DNA from: a virus
Virus record (IMG/VR): IMGVR_UViG_3300043409_000268
Coordinates: 1-22,978 of that record
Strand: one strand, 5' to 3'
Length of the DNA: 22,978 nucleotides
Shown here: piece by piece, positions 490-7,278 of the stretch
Position numbering within the stretch: position 1 is the stretch's first letter
Layout of the letters: each line of letters starts with the position of its first letter
Program-made: the position numbers and the translations under genes
Notes under the pieces: model-generated
Seen by the model: the letters and a program-made list of their open reading frames with translations, nothing else
What the model was told of the DNA's origin: nothing
The model's database searches: none

Positions 490-732
490 TTAGAATGGCA
501 AATCATCATCTGCATCATCTGGCATTAAAGGTATCTCTGTATGCACTGGCTTCACGTATGGCTCTTGAAATGTAGTACTAAAGTACTTTATACCTGTCTT
601 ACTTTCTTTAAGCCATAGAGCTACCTCCATATCTTTACCATTTACATTTACCTTACCTTTGTAGTCAGGATGAGTTTCGCTTGTCTTTTTGTCGTTCTTA
701 AAGATAGCACCTGTGTTGTTCTTAGTTTCCAT
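490..732 (-). CDS. Small protein ending in an SSB-type acidic tail; candidate ssDNA-binding/recombination accessory protein (80 aa)
   Basis: The last residues are PDDADDDLPF. This acidic stretch ending in L/I-P-F is the hallmark of bacterial and phage single-stranded DNA-binding protein tails, which dock partner repair and replication enzymes. The body is short (about 60 residues) and beta-rich, with alternating segments such as YKGKVNVNGKDMEVALWLKE and GIKYFSTTFQEPYV, compatible with a small OB-like barrel. It is far shorter than a canonical SSB (about 110 residues or more before the tail), so calling it SSB would go too far. Neighbours are YqaJ exonuclease and ERF annealing protein upstream in the same operon, which fits a role on ssDNA. 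Its start is preceded by three TTAACAAT repeats. Confidence 0.75.
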   Translation of the reverse strand: METKNNTGAIFKNDKKTSETHPDYKGKVNVNGKDMEVALWLKESKTGIKYFSTTFQEPYVKPVHTEIPLMPDDADDDLPF

Positions 733-758
733 TGTTAATCATTGTTAAAAATTGTTAA
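731..758 (-). repeat. Three direct TTAACAAT repeats with 10-bp period in the leader of the SSB-tail gene
   Basis: On the plus strand the blocks ATTGTTAA at 731-738, 741-748 and 751-758 are identical and spaced exactly 10 bp apart. On the mRNA this reads TTAACAAT three times directly before, and touching, the ATG at 732. There is no Shine-Dalgarno sequence. The repeats lie inside the 3' end of the upstream 31-aa frame. An unstructured A/C-rich leader favours translation in Bacteroidota, so this is probably a translation-enhancing leader; a one-face protein-binding site (10-bp period) is the alternative. Confidence 0.6.
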
Positions 759-830
759 TAAATAAGCGATTGTGCACCACCACCCCCACACCACAGCAGG
801 GGCTAGTAATATTGTTAGTAGGATTATCAT
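735..830 (-). CDS. 31-residue single-pass membrane peptide
   Basis: Reading the minus strand from 830 gives MIILLTILLAPAVVWGWW, continuing to the end FNND: a single hydrophobic helix of about 25 residues and a short acidic tail. Support comes from context. Its ATG overlaps the TGA of the 59-aa gene upstream (ATGA), and it ends 2 nt before the ATG of the SSB-tail gene, so it fills the gap between them exactly. Genes throughout this operon are joined by the same ATGA coupling. No function can be assigned; small phage membrane peptides often act on host envelope processes. Confidence 0.55.
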   Translation of the reverse strand: MIILLTILLAPAVVWGWWCTIAYLLTIFNND

Positions 831-1006
831 AGGATCCTATCACTAGGCCATACTATCTCCTCACCACACACCTCTAGTGTGATAGCTTCAGCATACTCTA
901 GGGCTTTCTTAGCCACATAGTTAGGGCTTATCCCTTGTTGGCTTAGCATTAGTGCTTCCATAGCCACTAGTATAGCCTTCTCCTTAAACTCTTCTCTTTG
1001 TATCAT
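827..1006 (-). CDS. Small helical protein of unknown function (59 aa)
   Basis: Begins MIQREEFKEKAILVAMEAL and ends VWPSDRIL. It is mostly alpha-helical, with charged and alanine-rich segments and no recognisable motif. Its ATG overlaps the TGA of the YqaJ gene (ATGA at 1003-1006), and its own TGA overlaps the start of the 31-aa membrane peptide. The double translational coupling makes it very likely to be a real gene despite its size. Position inside the YqaJ/ERF operon suggests an accessory role in recombination, but nothing in the residues shows this. Confidence 0.65.
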   Translation of the reverse strand: MIQREEFKEKAILVAMEALMLSQQGISPNYVAKKALEYAEAITLEVCGEEIVWPSDRIL

Positions 1007-1680
1007 AATTGTTTTATTAGTTCGTTAAAATATTCTCTACATTGTTCTACTCTTAACTTAATTTGTTCTATCACCTCCTCATCTCTTTGTATTACAAAGG
1101 TCTTGACTCTTTTAGCATCAGGTATATGATTGAAGCTGTGCTGTTTTTGCACCTGGTCTCTAAGATCTAAACTCTCCTCCATTAGTCCTAACTTGTAGTG
1201 TGCACTCTTTACCTCCTGCTCAACTATGGCATGGGGTGTATTGGTTAGGCAGTAGCACAGTAGTGCCTCTTGTTTATTACATAAAAACATATACCCTTGC
1301 AGTTGGTAAAAATAGTCTTTGTTAGGGCATTCATCAGGTTTGTCAAACCAGGGGAAAGTAGATCCACTCCATGAATTTTTCACATCTAATAGCACCTGAT
1401 CAGTAACTACATCAGGAGTACCTGTTAGCCAATCATTACTAAAGTGCTCTTCATTCTTGAAGATAAAGCCCTTATCTATCTGCTCCATTACAAAGCTGAG
1501 GCACATATCCTCGCACTCATTGCCCTTATCAGTATACTTACTAGTGAACTCTTTACGTATACCATAAACGTGTGCCAGGGCTAAGCCTTGAATATACGTT
1601 TTAGTTGTTTGTGATAGTACCTCCCCTTTAGTTTTAGAAGAGGTCATTATCTTACCTATTGCTGAGCATCTAATCTTCAT
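1003..1680 (-). CDS. YqaJ-type viral exonuclease (PD-(D/E)XK)
   Basis: A 5'-3' exonuclease of the lambda Red-alpha/YqaJ type that resects dsDNA ends to make ssDNA for the annealing protein next door. Visible motifs in order: an N-terminal RCSAIGKIMT segment (residues 4-13) typical of YqaJ; the helix with KGNECED (E55/E57); the catalytic core GTPD (residues 87-90) followed by LLDVK (D99, K101); and the downstream YFYQLQGYM motif with Q126 and Y130, which caps the active site in this family. At 225 residues it has normal length. Its start ATG overlaps the stop of the ERF gene (1677-1680), an exonuclease/annealase pairing typical of phage recombination modules. All expected catalytic residues are present. 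Confidence 0.93.
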   Translation of the reverse strand: MKIRCSAIGKIMTSSKTKGEVLSQTTKTYIQGLALAHVYGIRKEFTSKYTDKGNECEDMCLSFVMEQIDKGFIFKNEEHFSNDWLTGTPDVVTDQVLLDVKNSWSGSTFPWFDKPDECPNKDYFYQLQGYMFLCNKQEALLCYCLTNTPHAIVEQEVKSAHYKLGLMEESLDLRDQVQKQHSFNHIPDAKRVKTFVIQRDEEVIEQIKLRVEQCREYFNELIKQL

Positions 1681-2228
1681 ATCATAGGTATTAAAAGCAG
1701 TGAATTAATCTGAGTATCATTCAAGTCAAAGCTCTCCTTTAATTTCTCTACAGTAAACTTACCATCAGCTATAGCCTTAACAGCCTCAGCAAATCTCTTA
1801 GCATCTATCTTAGGCTTAGCAGTTGTAGCTATGTGACCATCATCATCAGTTGCCTGAAGAGTGAGCAGAGCTTGGATGGTGTACCTACGAAAGTAGGAAA
1901 TTTGACTCCCCTGCTGCTGTGCATTGAGGGTTAAGTCCATAGCCATACAGCTAGAGATAGAAAAACCTGTGTAGATGCATACTATCTGAGTGCATACACT
2001 ACCACCATCTATAGGCTGTAATAAAAGTAGATCATGCTGTAATAAGATAGGCTCAACAGTCTCTAGGATACTATTGATATCTGCATAAGATTTCTTAAAG
2101 TGTGGGTTAGTAGCATTCTTATGTACTTTACCGATTAGTTGTTTTGCCTGGTGAAGGCGAACATAGAAGGGAGCAGGCTGCTGCTCAACCTCCTGAGGCT
2201 TTACAGCCTTAGTTGTTTTTGGTTCCAT
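1677..2228 (-). CDS. erf: ERF-family single-strand annealing protein
   Basis: An ssDNA-annealing recombinase of the P22 Erf superfamily; it pairs complementary ssDNA produced by the YqaJ exonuclease. Family features: residues 41-63 (NPHFKKSYADINSILETVEP, then helix) form the conserved ERF N-terminal segment, and residues 107-131 contain GSQISYFRRYTIQALLTL followed by ATDDDG, the characteristic ERF signature. The C-terminal 50 residues are helical and variable, as usual. It is 183 residues long. It has its own promoter box at 2251-2258, and its translation start carries the AAACTAACCAA leader element shared with two other early operons. Start chosen because it sits correctly behind that leader. 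Confidence 0.93.
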   Translation of the reverse strand: MEPKTTKAVKPQEVEQQPAPFYVRLHQAKQLIGKVHKNATNPHFKKSYADINSILETVEPILLQHDLLLLQPIDGGSVCTQIVCIYTGFSISSCMAMDLTLNAQQQGSQISYFRRYTIQALLTLQATDDDGHIATTAKPKIDAKRFAEAVKAIADGKFTVEKLKESFDLNDTQINSLLLIPMI

Positions 2229-2281
2229 TGGTTAGTTTATTAATTGTTTACAAATATAGTAATTATTATTCTATTTTCACA
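2228..2281 (-). promoter_or_regulatory. Bacteroidota-type promoter and shared leader element before ERF
   Basis: On the minus strand TATATTTG lies at 2251-2258, a match to the Bacteroidota -7 consensus TAnnTTTG. TGTG lies 19 nt further upstream (2278-2281) as a possible weak -33 box. The leader then runs about 22 nt to the ATG and ends AAACTAACCAATG. The 11-nt AAACTAACCAA (2228-2238) is identical to that in the leader at 8335-8345 and is perfectly complementary to the loop of the terminator RNA at 8488-8528. The gap 2229-2311 contains nothing else that I can see. Confidence 0.7.
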
Positions 2282-2311
2282 TTATTTTTAATTAATTATT
2301 GAGATTAGTAC

Positions 2312-2773
2312 TTATATTTCATACTTTACGCAAAAATTATCATACCACTCAATAAAATCATCAAAGGTCTTAGAGATAATATAGATACCTCCTGCAGCTT
2401 CTATCATTAATTGGTATTGCTTTTGCACCACTGACTGCTTATCCTTACCTATCTTTACTTCTATCTTTACAGATCTCCCATAAATAGTAGCAGATATATC
2501 TGCAGATCCTGGAGTACCTGTGCCCTTAGTCCACTGCCCTGCAGTCTTAGTGCCATCAGTTCTATAGCTCTGCCTGAATACTCCCATTGTATTAATCCTC
2601 TCAGCTTGATGCTTAGAGTAGTTAAGAAAGTCAGTGATGCATCTAGTCAAGCCATTAGCTGTAGCATCTGAGTACTTAGTGAATGGTATGATGTGCCCTG
2701 GTGCTGATGGGTACCTGTAGCTCATGTACTTCTCTTCAAGCTCATGTAGTCTTTGTTTGTTTTGTTTGTTCAT
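2312..2773 (-). CDS. VRR-NUC-type nuclease (PD-(D/E)XK), Holliday-junction-resolvase-like
   Basis: Residues 83-125 carry the nuclease core: KGTGTPGSADISATIYG with D92, then VKIEVKIGKDKQS with the catalytic E105-x-K107 and Q113, followed by the helix VQKQYQLMIEAAGG. The closing strand IYIISKTFDDFIEWYDNF is typical of VRR-NUC proteins of Bacteroidota phages. The N-terminal part contains the usual TANGLTRCITDFLNY and HQAERINTMG segments. At 153 residues it is full length. It probably resolves branched DNA or processes replication intermediates. Its start overlaps the out-of-frame ORF 2742-3098 by 32 nt. It belongs to the same unit as the CoiA-like nuclease and the primase-helicase upstream. Confidence 0.87.
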   Translation of the reverse strand: MNKQNKQRLHELEEKYMSYRYPSAPGHIIPFTKYSDATANGLTRCITDFLNYSKHQAERINTMGVFRQSYRTDGTKTAGQWTKGTGTPGSADISATIYGRSVKIEVKIGKDKQSVVQKQYQLMIEAAGGIYIISKTFDDFIEWYDNFCVKYEI

Positions 2774-3098
2774 TTTTTTGTTTTAAGTGTTCTGCATATG
2801 TAAATTGTCTTTTTGGATCATACCAATGTTTTTTGAATACAGGCATCAATAAATCTAATTCTGTTTGTAACAAATTCAATTTGTTCTGTAAGCTGTTCAA
2901 TAGTTCTGCTTGGTCTAACTCTGGCGTTAAAAGTTCGTATGTATTCTCTAGTTTTGTTATATGATAAACTAGCTTTTTGTATTGATATATTACCTGCTCT
3001 AATTCGTTTTCTAATCTCAATTTCGCAGCTTTCTTCCTCTCTAAAATATAACCATTCAGTTCTAATAGGTTGCTGATAATTATCTTTTTGTTTTCCAT
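2742..3098 (-). CDS. Coiled-coil ORF overlapping the CoiA-like nuclease in another frame; may be its frameshifted C-terminus
   Basis: This 118-residue frame starts inside the CoiA-like gene and overlaps it for 281 nt. Its amino acid content looks like a genuine charged coiled coil: LERKKAAKLRLENELEQ, then heptad-like KLENTYELL, then NSLQNKLNLLQTELDLL, ending in WYDPKRQFTYAEHLKQ. Immediately upstream of its Met the frame is closed by TAA. Two readings are possible. It may be a separate overlapping gene, or it may be the true C-terminal extension of the nuclease, reached by a +1 shift around the purine-rich stretch at about 3035-3047. CoiA-like proteins often continue into a charged helical tail after the TEWLYFREE region, which favours the second reading. 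The frame extends into the VRR-NUC start by 32 nt. Confidence 0.5.
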   Translation of the reverse strand: MENKKIIISNLLELNGYILERKKAAKLRLENELEQVIYQYKKLVYHITKLENTYELLTPELDQAELLNSLQNKLNLLQTELDLLMPVFKKHWYDPKRQFTYAEHLKQKNEQTKQTKTT

Positions 3099-3546
3099 AA
3101 GTTAGTTCTATTGTTGGTATTTGATATTGATTAATTTTTTCTATATCCTTATCATCTTTAGCATGTGTTACATTCACTTCTACTATGCACATTATCTCAC
3201 CATCACTATCTAAAAATAAACAATCAGGTCTCATAGAGTAATCAGGTATTTTTGCTTTAATATATCTAGCTGCCTCAGCTTCTAGTAATACTTTATCACA
3301 TATAATTGTTAAATTATCTACTTGCACTGTTTTTTTCTCTTTTAAGTATTTTTGACAGTCTTTGTGAAAAATTATATTTACATCAATATCCTCACCTCTT
3401 TTAGTTTTGTAGTGCTTTCTATACTTATCACCATGTGCTACTATTATCTCATACTCTTTATCTTCATACCTAAAATAATATGTATTACCCTTAACAGCAT
3501 CATCAATATGTATGCTATTACCATCTATATCCTCAGCGTATATCAT
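2818..3546 (-). CDS. CoiA-like PD-(D/E)XK nuclease
   Basis: The centre of this 242-residue protein has the pattern of competence-protein CoiA-like nucleases: a helix (VLLEAEAARYIKAKIPDYS), then RPDCLFLDSDGEI with D108, then CIVEVNVTHAKDDKDIEKI with E123 and the conserved T-H, then YQIPTIELTY, then TEWLYFREEE. The lysine of the usual E-x-K is replaced by asparagine (E123-V-N125), as is common in this subgroup. The N-terminal 65 residues are a beta-rich domain with DKYRKHYKTKRGED. The last 70 residues in this frame are less protein-like than the alternative frame on the same DNA, so the C-terminus may be shifted. Start overlaps the primase-helicase stop (ATGA). Likely role: processing phage or host DNA during replication. 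Confidence 0.72.
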   Translation of the reverse strand: MIYAEDIDGNSIHIDDAVKGNTYYFRYEDKEYEIIVAHGDKYRKHYKTKRGEDIDVNIIFHKDCQKYLKEKKTVQVDNLTIICDKVLLEAEAARYIKAKIPDYSMRPDCLFLDSDGEIMCIVEVNVTHAKDDKDIEKINQYQIPTIELTYGKQKDNYQQPIRTEWLYFREEESCEIEIRKRIRAGNISIQKASLSYNKTREYIRTFNARVRPSRTIEQLTEQIEFVTNRIRFIDACIQKTLV

Positions 3547-5867
3547 AACTTAGTTATCTTGAACCATCTACCTACTGCACTTCTACCCTTGTCGAAGTGA
3601 TACCCCTTAAACTTGCAGTACTCATTAACCATCTTAAGATACCTCTGAGCATTTAGATCATGCCACCCTCCTGTGTAAGTTTGGAAGTCTTGTATAGATA
3701 CATTGTTATAGTGCAGCGTGTCCATTGTAATGTTACCCTCTATTGCATAGTCGTAAAACTCTTTGTTAGTAGAAGAGATAAATCTTTTGTCATTAGCATT
3801 AATAGCTACTGATTTAACAAGGCCCATTGATAAGAATTTCTGCAGGTTGTTTATCATATAGTTATCAAAGATTAACCAATCTACTAAGGTCCAGCTGTCA
3901 AATAACAACCTACCATACTCATCTAGTGGGTTTCGCTGAGCATTAAAGTACTGATTAAACTCTATTTCGTGCCTTCTCCTGTCATGGCTACCACCTGCAC
4001 CACTTATCACATAGTTGGTAGTGATGACTATCTTAGGGCTCCTTTCAAATGGGATAAAGATCTCATCTTTATTTTTTCTGTTCACTGTAATCCCTTCTGA
4101 GATAAGTGAGAATAGCTGCTCAAAGTCAAAGTTCTTTTTAACATCATCAAAGGCTAAAATTTGACTATCTAAATTTACTCGCTGATAAACAAAATCAGAC
4201 TTTTGAGGGTTGAATGCTTTACCATCTATCTTTACTATATTTCTAATCTTACCAATAGCAGTTAGCACTAAGCTCTTACCACTTCCCCCATTAGGATTAT
4301 CATCTATTTCCTGATCATTAAAAATAATTGCTTTCTGATCTGTTTTATCTTTGTAGGTATGGAGTAAATAACCTAAGGTAGTCTCTAAGGCATTCACCCT
4401 CTGCTCATCATCTGCAGATACTTTGCTTACAAAGCTCTTAAAATCATTTTCAATAGTCTTAGTAGGTTTGTAATCTCTATCAATGATTTGCCTATCCCAA
4501 ATGTACCCATCTATATCAATGTAGGGCACAATATCTATCTTATCTTTTGTAATCTTAACTACTCCATTTCTGTAAGGTATGAAGCTCACATCTTTAGTAT
4601 CCTGCAGCATCATTAAACCGATAGGCTCTAGCATAGATAAGTGACCATCTGTAAAGAGGTAGGGTGATTTACTGCAGTAGTTCCAAACTTCCACTTGCTT
4701 CTGCTTCATAAGATAAGCTAAGACAAAATCTTTAACCTGGTCCACTGAGGATAGATTAACTTTATTTTCTATTACCCTAACAAATGTAGGTTTCTCTGAT
4801 CGTTCAGGATAATACTTATTAAAGCCATACTTGTATAAGAAGTCACGATACTTCATAGGATCTACAGATACCCCTTTCTTATCACTAAAAGTCCAGAATA
4901 CATCCTCACTATTAGCCACATCTTTTTTAACATCCTCTACCACATCAGGCTTAATATCTAATTGCTTTGATATATCACTAGGGGAGATGCCCTCTTTTAG
5001 TTTAGACTTTACTTTTATTATAGTTTCTTTATCCTCAAAGTACTTAGTGCCTTTATCACTTCTTTTGTAAGCAGATCCTACACAGGTATTAATTTCTATT
5101 TGTGTAAAGGTCTTATCACTGTACTGATGCAGGTATAGTTTAGCAGTATTTTCACTGATACCATACTCACAAAAGCAGGATGCTACCTTAAACACCCAAT
5201 TATTTCTACCATTACCAATATCACCATGATTAAACTTCATTATATTATCAATGATATTACTTTCATTAGTCATTGGTAGCACTGGCACCTTATCAAAAGA
5301 GCTATGCCCTTTCTCCTCCTCAATAAGATTAAACACCTCAGCATCTAAATTGATATAGGCTGTAGGATCATAAGACTCAAAGCACACCCTACTAACATTA
5401 CAGCTAGAAGTATCAAAGTAGTCACTATCTATGTACTCCTCAAAGGCCTTAAATCTTCTCTTATGTGTGAATTTGTCTGATGGTGGTATCTTAATCACGC
5501 ACTTTAAGCCTTTGCCTGATGGTGATACAAATATCATAAAGACATTGATACAGGCCATTAGCCGAACTTTCTCAGCTTCCATTACCTCATCACTAGGATA
5601 ATCATCAAAGTCTAAGATACAAAGCCCTGAGTGCTCAATAAGGCCATTATCATTCCTTTCATTAAACGTACCATTAAACATTATAGCTCTAAGGCTGTTT
5701 TTTAGGCTGCTGTAGGCAGGATTATCATCTTCCATAGCTCTAAGAGCAGTGATCTTATCAATAAGCTCAGGGTAGCCCTCTTTTATTCTATTGTAAACAT
5801 CTACTACGTCTTGAGTGTAGGGAGTTTCTTTAGAATTGAATAAGGACTTGAATACAGATATCTTCAT
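3543..5867 (-). CDS. Primase-polymerase / SF3 helicase replication protein (BT4734-like N-terminus)
   Basis: The main replication enzyme of the phage. The N-terminal ~200 residues match the BT4734/VirE-N type of archaeo-eukaryotic primase: LCILDFDD (catalytic acidic residues 86-89), SPSGKGLK (115-122) and SRVCFESYDP (159-168). A helical linker (about 200-330) resembles the primase C-terminal region. The C-terminal half is a superfamily 3 helicase: Walker A NPNGGSGKS (524-532), Walker B QILAFDDV (569-576), motif C KIVITTNY (612-619), and an arginine-rich SHDRRRHEIEF segment after it. At 774 residues it has normal length for the fusion. A promoter box and leader element precede it, and an iteron-rich region that may be the origin lies directly upstream. 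Confidence 0.93.
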   Translation of the reverse strand: MKISVFKSLFNSKETPYTQDVVDVYNRIKEGYPELIDKITALRAMEDDNPAYSSLKNSLRAIMFNGTFNERNDNGLIEHSGLCILDFDDYPSDEVMEAEKVRLMACINVFMIFVSPSGKGLKCVIKIPPSDKFTHKRRFKAFEEYIDSDYFDTSSCNVSRVCFESYDPTAYINLDAEVFNLIEEEKGHSSFDKVPVLPMTNESNIIDNIMKFNHGDIGNGRNNWVFKVASCFCEYGISENTAKLYLHQYSDKTFTQIEINTCVGSAYKRSDKGTKYFEDKETIIKVKSKLKEGISPSDISKQLDIKPDVVEDVKKDVANSEDVFWTFSDKKGVSVDPMKYRDFLYKYGFNKYYPERSEKPTFVRVIENKVNLSSVDQVKDFVLAYLMKQKQVEVWNYCSKSPYLFTDGHLSMLEPIGLMMLQDTKDVSFIPYRNGVVKITKDKIDIVPYIDIDGYIWDRQIIDRDYKPTKTIENDFKSFVSKVSADDEQRVNALETTLGYLLHTYKDKTDQKAIIFNDQEIDDNPNGGSGKSLVLTAIGKIRNIVKIDGKAFNPQKSDFVYQRVNLDSQILAFDDVKKNFDFEQLFSLISEGITVNRKNKDEIFIPFERSPKIVITTNYVISGAGGSHDRRRHEIEFNQYFNAQRNPLDEYGRLLFDSWTLVDWLIFDNYMINNLQKFLSMGLVKSVAINANDKRFISSTNKEFYDYAIEGNITMDTLHYNNVSIQDFQTYTGGWHDLNAQRYLKMVNEYCKFKGYHFDKGRSAVGRWFKITKL

Positions 5868-5914
5868 GGTTAGTTAGTTGGGGTGTAAATATAATCATTA
5901 ATTCTATATGACAA
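5867..5914 (-). promoter_or_regulatory. Promoter-like box and leader element before the primase-helicase
   Basis: On the minus strand TATATTTA lies at 5886-5893, one base off the TAnnTTTG box. TTG at 5912-5914 stands 18 nt upstream as a possible -33 element, and it is part of an iteron-like TTGTCAT. The leader ends AACTAACCATG. AACTAACCA (5867-5875) is the same element as in the other two early leaders, here with 9 nt of complementarity to the terminator loop at 8504-8521. Confidence 0.55.
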
Positions 5915-6089
5915 CACTATGACGCAAAATGACGCAAATTTTAAGCCCTTGTCATAGCTAATAAGTATACTGCTATTGACTATTAGAGCTTTATGACGCA
6001 AATGACGCAAAATAAAATAAAAAAAATTATTTAGAAAATGCAAAAAGTTACAGCAGACGCTAATAAGAGAAGTTGTCATAGCGTCATTA
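5908..6089. other. Iteron cluster with AT-rich tract: candidate replication origin or operator
   Basis: This gene-free stretch carries at least eight copies of the core ATGAC(G/A). Direct copies: ATGACAAC at 5908; two perfect tandem ATGACGCAAA units at 5919-5928 and 5929-5938; a second pair at 5993-6001 and 6002-6012. Inverted copies: TTGTCAT at 5950 and 6073, and GCGTCAT at 6081-6087. Between the second pair and the last inverted copies lies a very A/T-rich segment (6011-6050) suitable as an unwinding element. The region sits between a DnaA-domain-IV-like gene and the primase-helicase gene. Iterons next to replication genes are classical for origins; binding of an autoregulator to the primase promoter is the alternative. 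Confidence 0.65.
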
Positions 6090-6090
6090 G

Positions 6091-6453
6091 TTAGTAGTAA
6101 TTGCATCTGATCTGCTCTTTAAGTTTCTCTAATTTCTCAAGGCTAACACATTCTAACACCCTCTGCTTTAATGGTTTGTAGTATTGAGGTAGCACAAACT
6201 TCTCCCTTAATTCTAAGGTATGCATCATATAAGCACTGTCTTTGTACTTTGAGTAAGTGTCATGCTTAGCTATCCCATTTATGACAGTTGCGTGAGTTTG
6301 TTCAAACAGCCTACCAATCTGTGATAGTGTCATACCATCCCTTTTGAGTACTTTGTACAGGTAATACCTCTTGTAAAGTACATGCATATACCTGCTTTTT
6401 TGTTTTAGATCGTGCTTATCTATGATAGCCTGTACCTCTTCTAGTCTGGTCAT
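6091..6453 (-). CDS. Small protein with DnaA domain-IV-like helix-turn-helix; candidate origin-binding protein
   Basis: Residues 41-60 read MTLSQIGRLFEQTHATVING. This resembles the DnaA C-terminal DNA-binding signature (L-P-E-I-G-R-x-F-G-x-x-H-x-T-V), including the IGR-x-F helix and the H-x-T-V recognition helix. It is preceded by a basic helix (RYYLYKVLKRDG) as in DnaA domain IV. There is no ATPase domain; the rest of the 120 residues is helical and charged. The gene lies immediately upstream of the iteron cluster and the primase-helicase, so binding to the iterons as initiator or regulator is the obvious hypothesis. Its ATG overlaps the stop of the preceding gene. Identification rests on motif resemblance only. 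Confidence 0.72.
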   Translation of the reverse strand: MTRLEEVQAIIDKHDLKQKSRYMHVLYKRYYLYKVLKRDGMTLSQIGRLFEQTHATVINGIAKHDTYSKYKDSAYMMHTLELREKFVLPQYYKPLKQRVLECVSLEKLEKLKEQIRCNYY

Positions 6454-6692
6454 GATAATAGTTTAGGGTTTACACTCTTAAAGAGCTCACTTTGACTGTC
6501 TACCAATCCCACTGCATTGATATAATCTATCTCTACCTTTGCACTGGCTATGATAGTAGCACTCAGCTGAGCTATTGCTTTTGCCTTTTCTACTTCCTGC
6601 TGTACTTTCTCATTACTCATGTCCTCATCAGCTAATCTTTCAAGTGCCATAAAGATGTGATCACGTAGATCACTTAGTTTGTTGTTTGCCAT
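6450..6692 (-). CDS. Small helical phage protein, function unknown (80 aa)
   Basis: Reads MANNKLSDLRDHIFMALERL, then an acidic turn (ADEDMSNEKVQQEVEKAK) and a long helix (AIAQLSATIIASAKVEIDYI). Small proteins of this kind, with KLSDLRDHIFxALERL at the N-terminus, are common in phage early regions and are often found with HNH genes and small DNA-binding proteins. I know of no demonstrated function. The stop overlaps the start of the DnaA-like gene (ATGA), and the start overlaps the HNH gene's 3' end by 23 nt. Probably an oligomeric helical protein. Confidence 0.7.
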   Translation of the reverse strand: MANNKLSDLRDHIFMALERLADEDMSNEKVQQEVEKAKAIAQLSATIIASAKVEIDYINAVGLVDSQSELFKSVNPKLLS

Positions 6693-7278
6693 TTGTTTTA
6701 CGTTTTAGTTTACATGTTAGTTTCATTACTTCCTGTAGCTCAGCAGGATATCTTTGTATAGTATTACGAGCCATATTTTCCTTTCTACTTATTACTTGCA
6801 GATTACTTAGTTCACAGTTCAAATAGTTGCCATCTAAAAATATGACTACAGATCCTGGAGCTATCTCCCCATTTGCCTGAGTCCATACGTGCCTCTGCAG
6901 TAGTTCCCATTGGCAATCTTTAATTTTGATATATTGGTAAAATCTACCTGTCTTATCAGCTCTTAAATTAATGGTTCCATTAGGCTTAGTATTGTGAGGC
7001 TTATTGCCTTTCTTAAACATGGTAGGTGCTACCTTCTCATAGATTTCTGCATCCATCTGCTTACCTTTATTATGTGGAGTGTGCCCTGGCTTAAATTGAT
7101 TAGGTACAGATGGCTCTATGATCCTACCACTTTCAGGTGTAAGCATATACTCAGCTGATTTCTTTATCTTAGCACCCCATGCAGTATTGTATACCTTGCT
7201 TATGGTTACCCCTAGAAGCTCAGCTATGTACTTACTGCTGTGATTTGGATATAGATCTATGATCTGCTGTTTTATCAT
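6670..7278 (-). CDS. HNH-endonuclease-like protein with N-terminal helix-turn-helix
   Basis: Residues 1-35 form a helix-turn-helix (SSKYIAELLGVTISKVYNTAW). The centre holds two related segments, FKPGHTPHNKGK and FKKGNKPHNTKPNG. These are followed by a strand-rich part and the HNH-type core: LLQRHVW (H130), then PGSVVIFLDGNYLNCELSNL (D149, N151) and ISRKENMARN. In canonical HNH_3 proteins the second block has a His where this protein has Phe (IFLDGN), so the metal site is incomplete. It may be a weakly active or non-catalytic DNA-binding form, a variant often seen in Bacteroidota phages. It sits within the early operon rather than interrupting another gene, so it is probably not a recent homing insertion. 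Confidence 0.8.
   Translation of the reverse strand: MIKQQIIDLYPNHSSKYIAELLGVTISKVYNTAWGAKIKKSAEYMLTPESGRIIEPSVPNQFKPGHTPHNKGKQMDAEIYEKVAPTMFKKGNKPHNTKPNGTINLRADKTGRFYQYIKIKDCQWELLQRHVWTQANGEIAPGSVVIFLDGNYLNCELSNLQVISRKENMARNTIQRYPAELQEVMKLTCKLKRKTNGKQQTK

Follow-up and report, generated by a model that had tools for sequence, protein, structure and literature searches.

The window, the whole stretch of DNA that was analysed, is the complete virus record IMGVR_UViG_3300043409_000268 (22,978 bases). Its genes, nearly all of which point in one direction, include those for a portal, a protease-like protein and an endolysin, which indicated that the record derives from a tailed phage. A repeat array lies between a gene for a DnaA-like protein (6091-6453, - strand) and a primase-helicase gene (3543-5867, - strand), and both neighbours, named as such in the original prediction of a phage origin at this site, were confirmed by domain searches and fold matches. 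The gene downstream of the primase-helicase gene overlaps it by 4 bp, leaving no intergenic space there. An open reading frame at 5870-6106 was judged spurious because relatives carry indels across the region. Elsewhere in the window, an exonuclease adjoins an Erf-like annealing protein (1003-2228), likely as a recombination module, and an 80-aa protein (6450-6692) matched, with an E value of 2.1e-18, a PHROG that carries the label RNA polymerase beta subunit, which is doubtful for so short a protein. The features of the locus are as follows.

3543-5867, - strand: primase-helicase gene, whose product is the proposed iteron reader
5868-6090, - strand: whole intergenic array, the proposed replication origin and primase promoter (from repeats and conservation)
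5886-5893, - strand: likely -7 box of the primase promoter (TATATTTA), from the alignment of relatives and a presumed consensus
5908-5914, - strand: promoter-proximal iteron that reads TTGTCAT on the gene strand, with the TTG lying across part of the likely -33 box (presumed consensus)
5919-5938, - strand: right-hand iteron pair, two perfect 10-bp units that read ATGACGCAAA on the + strand
5949-5955, + strand: inverted iteron that reads TTGTCAT on the + strand and forms the inverted arm at a fixed distance
5957-5992, no strand: central element inside the 44-45 bp arm, of the CTGAAA, AAT, TTGATTTATAG type, conserved across iteron classes
5993-6011, - strand: left-hand iteron pair of two ATGACGCAAA units spaced by 9 bp, directly adjoining the A/T tract
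6011-6050, no strand: A/T-rich tract, candidate melting region
6073-6087, + strand: outer inverted iteron pair, TTGTCAT and GCGTCAT, beside the stop codon of the DnaA-like gene
6091-6453, - strand: gene for a 120-aa protein like DnaA domain IV alone, an exchangeable neighbour and not a likely iteron reader

The predicted cluster of repeats proved to be real. Eight of the 19 ATGAC(A/G) cores in the window, counted on both strands, lie within 5908-6087, at 5908, 5919, 5929, 5993 and 6002 on the + strand and at 5950, 6074 and 6082 on the - strand, with the inverted copies within one base of the sites first given for them. The array holds all five window copies of ATGACGC (5919-6087) and all four of ATGACGCAA. 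The perfect 10-bp tandem and the 9-bp-spaced pair were both present as described, and so was the A/T-rich tract, which at 90% A+T is rich and not unique because 29 of the 22,939 40-bp stretches in the window reach that value. Only 2 of 2000 local Markov simulations produced a 10-mer with four copies in 223 bp, whereas a 9-mer with four copies in any 223-bp stretch of the simulated whole window, a weaker control, appeared in 4 of 200; the evidence from the window only is therefore moderate, and it is the comparative evidence that settles the reality of the array.

No richer cluster of repeated words of 8-9 bases was found elsewhere in the window. Outside the region CGTCA occurs twice, against 28.5 copies expected by base composition and 3.7 by the Markov model. 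Avoidance of the iteron word elsewhere is not claimed; the Markov expectation is itself low, and CGTCA is common elsewhere in the related contigs G007 and G010. A stem-loop origin within the array gained no support, as the region folded no better than shuffles (z -1.06). Rfam gave no match to an E value of 1 in the window and three relatives (L056, L069 and L078), and among INPHARED phages no real match to the array was found (best E 0.06).

Viral loci were collected by two scans with proteins of the window, one with the tandem repeat and one with the primase alignment; the relatives used were the best 80 of 242 and the best 80 of 513, a sample of the closest members. Of 139 primase loci that had 300 bp or more of upstream sequence, 101 were left once identical 200-bp upstream stretches had been removed; these come from uncultured phages and a few bacterial genomes. 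Among the matches listed, 86 of the 101 loci carry at least three CGTCA within 600 bp upstream of the primase gene, and CGTCA is 13.6-fold denser in these 600 bp than in the rest of the loci. The 15 loci below three are L018, L038 and L039 (class B), with TTGTCAT iterons; L049, L050 and L052 (class C), with a CGTAG core; L164, L172 and L178, with a CGTCC variant; L233-L235, with a GCAACAC word; and three in which no array could be clearly recognised (L179, L228 and L232). The CGTCA count of L227 passes, yet its sites form no ordered array. Gene order kept without repeats, the case raised against an origin when it was first proposed, was encountered in only a few loci (L228, for example). One clade lacks ATGACG words, but in it another iteron holds the same places: in this changed-core clade (L049 and L050) they are occupied by CGTAGTGA iterons. 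A similar layout with GCAACACTT was seen in L234, which is about 40% identical.

Several observations were made in more distant records. In a Cytophagales MAG (L236; primase about 39% identical), ACCGTCAT occurs eight times within 250 bp upstream, and a DnaA-like gene was not detected. No array was seen upstream of the primase gene in phage record MW202828 (primase 38.5% identical), which carries a gene annotated dnaA. In this record (MW202828.1, L246), GATAATCA occurs four times around and just past the end of the primase gene (5357-5640), as the sole notable repeat in the 8.4 kb analysed; its position matches that assigned to the SaPI and pRN1 origins. The 37.4-kb contig IMGVR_UViG_3300027754_000223 (L021 and L024) carries two copies of the DnaA-like gene at a distance of 27,842 bp, which suggests a genome unit near 27.8 kb that is circular or terminally redundant. 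Six loci with this primase come from bacterial genomes, five of Bacteroidota type and one from Ignavibacteria by record title. Because these are mostly of Bacteroidota type, we infer hosts of that type for the phages. To our knowledge, little is known of the origins of phages of uncultured Bacteroidota-type hosts.

The sites follow one order along the primase gene: an outer pair in inverted orientation, a gap of about 65-80 bp, a direct pair, an inverted site, a gap of 20-21 bp, and direct sites. The direct pair and the inverted site are 43-44 bp apart, or 44-45 bp by the other counting convention. The full pair-plus-arm pattern is present in 63 of the 101 loci, among the matches listed; in these 63 the left (direct) pair is spaced by 8 bp in 50 and by 9 bp in 13, and the right-hand direct sites are mostly 10-11 or 20-21 bp apart. 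The general 10-bp phase first proposed for the sites was thus not borne out. With a looser definition, the opposed arm was found in 80 of 101 loci, at exactly 44/45 bp in 79, compared to 5 and 1 of 101 in control stretches of the same length inside the primase gene. When primases were clustered at 90% identity, 13 of 22 clusters showed the 44/45 bp arm.

Conservation was scored in 18 non-redundant arrays. Mean information was 1.63 bits in the pair, 1.51 in the inverted site and 1.12 in the central element, and lower in the left spacer (0.56 bits) and right flank (0.72 bits). The central element (CTGAAA, AAT, TTGATTTATAG) is kept although the iterons change (window 5957-5992 and 18 non-redundant relatives), and in the alignment of relatives the A/T tract abuts the direct pair. 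The proposed origin is supported in that most of the 101 loci carry, ahead of the same initiator-type gene, a conserved array whose geometry is fixed, and it is likely, judged from sequence, that the array at 5868-6090 is a replication origin.

The array might instead act only as an operator and promoter that regulates the primase gene, with the origin elsewhere. Opposed sites around promoters are common in operators, and here one of the sites extends over the likely -33 box, having retained TTG in place of the GCG found in the other iterons. The -33 and -7 boxes were assigned by what we take to be the Bacteroidota promoter consensus; at the likely -7 box, TA(T/C)ATTTAC is present in all aligned rows. 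However, eight sites in 180 bp, the A/T tract, an outer pair some 65-80 bp upstream and a conserved central element exceed the needs of repression; the distance between the sites and the primase ATG is about 165-425 bp in classes E and F; and no richer cluster of repeated 8-9-base words is present elsewhere in the window. We therefore regard a role restricted to regulation as rather unlikely. The earlier suggestion that initiation and autoregulation are linked is plausible as far as the position of the TTG-keeping site goes, but the promoter it overlaps is assigned by a presumed consensus. No sigma-70-type promoter was found in the array; one weak - strand site at 6452-6481 was detected, fewer than in shuffles.

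About 93-97 bp before the primase ATG, 15 of 101 loci (L055, L056, L058, L059, L061, L063, L066, L067, L069, L071-L073 and L077-L079) have what is probably a pseudoknotted leader RNA that includes a terminator-like run of T. It is also present in L060, L062, L068 and L074, and no copy of it was found in the window. Pairing between the hairpin loop ACTGCATC and a GATGCAG further upstream forms a loop helix that is invariant. Overall, 98% of cells are paired, with 14 compensatory cells over 11 distinct rows, and none of 500 shuffles scored as high. The leader in L056, L069 and L078 had no Rfam match.

A GC-skew minimum at the array, expected when the origin was proposed, was not found in the window or in the related contigs G001, G007, G010 and G011, and third-position skew did not change side at the array. 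This test is weak because nearly all genes point one way. The array could also be a site for a host protein or another phage protein, serving in partition or packaging or binding host DnaA, and a conserved central element without a known reader would suit such a role. We consider this very unlikely, as the word type changes with the primase lineage and no DnaA boxes (TTATNCACA) are present in the window.

The primase-helicase (774 aa) comprises a BT4734-like N-terminal domain, PriCT-1, a D5/SF3-type helicase and a C-terminal winged-helix-like domain; domain searches found no TOPRIM match in it. In its structure model (mean pLDDT 83.8), helices 721-732 and 740-754 and the two strands that follow fit a winged helix. 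The best VIA fold match was SaPI5 Rep (Z 17.9, 385 aligned, rmsd 6.9), with the helicase part best covered, followed by vaccinia D5 and mpox E5; the C-terminal region of NrS-1 matched with Z 12.7. Foldseek placed AsfvPrimPol in the first row and SaPI5 Rep in the second. The primase region weakly resembles primase entry 6a9w, which we take to be from NrS-1.

The product of the DnaA-like gene (120 aa) resembles DnaA domain IV only and lacks the AAA+ domain. Its model (pLDDT 87.7) gave a VIA match to 1j1v, DnaA domain IV with a DnaA box (Z 10.2, 86 aligned, rmsd 2.9); with Foldseek alone, no match reached an E value below 0.001. All 13 DnaA-like proteins compared carry R29 and H54, which align with an R and an H of the M. 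tuberculosis DnaA domain (E 0.031), residues that presumably contact the DnaA box. No match to the protein was found among INPHARED phages.

The original prediction was upheld in part: the origin gained support, but the DnaA-like protein that it named as the binder of the repeats did not. In favour of a model in which that protein reads the iterons and recruits the primase-helicase, its gene is present in 94 of the 101 loci, mostly just upstream, and the protein has the DnaA domain IV fold. However, iteron type tracks the primase and not the DnaA-like protein, both in partial Mantel tests and in natural swaps. The tests covered 44 loci, which were drawn from the first scan plus the window and had four or more sites and a DnaA-like protein no shorter than 110 aa; class C was entered by hand. 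Iteron similarity was associated with the primase given the DnaA-like protein (r 0.58, p about 0.0005), and not with the DnaA-like protein given the primase (r -0.17, p 1.0).

The swaps separate the two candidate readers in both directions. L019, L023 and L035 have primases 91-93% identical to that of the window and the same class-A iterons, beside DnaA-like proteins that are about 33% identical to that of the window and nearer to class E (that of L019 is 63% identical to that of L071); window-class iterons also occur with DnaA-like proteins near 54% in L015, L016 and L037. Conversely, L049-L051 have DnaA-like proteins 90-95% identical to that of the window, primases near 68% and CGTAGTGA iterons. 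Because the same iterons stand beside 33%-identical and other iterons beside 95%-identical DnaA-like proteins, assigning the reading of the repeats to this protein is probably wrong. Repeats also precede the primase gene in L233-L236, where tblastn found no DnaA-like gene, and the window lacks the DnaA box. An origin read by the DnaA-like protein is thus an unlikely explanation.

The comparisons suggest the primase-helicase itself, acting through its C-terminal domain, as the best-supported candidate reader. Of the 100 primases aligned, 86 and three of class C were used, and L232-L236 were left out of the background of the residue test. In the changed-core clade, alterations affect 11 of the 37 positions otherwise conserved in the post-helicase part, from residue 645 onward, compared to 10 of 268 before it (excess from 645 on, p 2.9e-6); 11 control groups showed no such C-terminal excess (p 0.28 to 1). 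This signal comes from a single clade, and in the more distant L233-L236 no clean separation by iteron type was seen at the C-terminal positions. The iteron flank distinguishes classes A and B, whose primases show excess divergence at residues 301-450 and at the C-terminus. These residues were not adopted as evidence for the reader domain; no column separates the classes perfectly, and 417 does so nearly. As the array adjoins the primase gene, physical linkage alone could be a real alternative cause of co-inheritance. Related initiators offer precedent: according to PMC7581432, iterons are read by the C-terminal domain of SaPI Rep, and that of Cch2 binds direct repeats, while PMC5862659 states that origins may be recognised by the winged helices at the C-terminus of mobile-element primases.

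Taken as a whole, the observations are probably best explained by an origin of a tailed phage that is read by a self-loading primase-helicase. The initiator would be the protein encoded just downstream, whose C-terminal winged-helix-like domain would bind the GTCA-core iterons. Two groups of molecules, opposed via the fixed 44-45 bp arm, would assemble as helicase rings, and their ATP-driven action would open the adjoining A/T tract, where the archaeo-eukaryotic-type primase domain of the same protein could lay the first primers. Binding at the site over the promoter may repress the protein's own gene and so limit initiation. More tentatively, such loci may form a separate class of phage origin, with two opposed primase-helicase rings at a fixed 44-45 bp, a central element read by a second factor or by the helicase, and the DnaA-domain-IV protein as an exchangeable accessory aimed elsewhere, for example at host DnaA boxes.

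What is new is the upstream position, the fixed inverted arm, the conserved central element and the natural swaps that map specificity. The loci amount to a natural swap experiment, with many initiator/iteron pairs and recombinants that separate the candidate readers. A single 3-kb piece holds an initiator and its proposed origin that can be tested as a pair, and the loci offer a route to map iteron specificity in the D5/SF3 family. The literature searches made here listed no description of an iteron origin combined with such a primase in phages of Bacteroidota.

Several known systems resemble the locus in part. An oriC/DnaA-type origin has DnaA boxes and an initiator with AAA+ and domain IV; here there are no boxes and domain IV only. 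Iteron plasmid origins likewise place direct repeats beside an A/T-rich tract but use Rep-type initiators and DnaA boxes, neither of which was found here; a Pfam scan of the nine window proteins at 490-7278 gave no plasmid Rep domain. The replicon of phage P4 alpha requires a second cis region (crr) besides ori. P4 alpha is alike in that one protein combines winged-helix repeat binding, unwinding and priming, but it has a TOPRIM-type primase (excerpt of PMC4234260), whereas the protein studied here has BT4734-like and PriCT-1 domains. The proteins of pRN1 (ORF904) and of the Bordetella phage BPP-1 type share an archaeo-eukaryotic primase, an SF3 helicase and a C-terminal winged helix, and for these the same excerpt (PMC4234260) gives a proposed stem-loop downstream of the gene, in contrast to the upstream iterons without unusual fold found here. 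RepA of PLE, which also acts with iterons, belongs to a different initiator family (part of PMC7145576). SaPI5 Rep and the SaPI/SCCmec Cch2 initiators join a primase and a D5/SF3-type helicase in one chain with a like fold, by the predicted model, and also have a C-terminal DNA-binding part and short iterons (PMC7581432, in part). SaPI elements are chromosomal islands that depend on helper phages, whereas the present phage has its own portal and endolysin genes. SaPI and SCCmec origins lie directly downstream of the rep gene, and the array described here lies upstream of the primase gene, an origin position opposite to that of the SaPI and pRN1 replicons.
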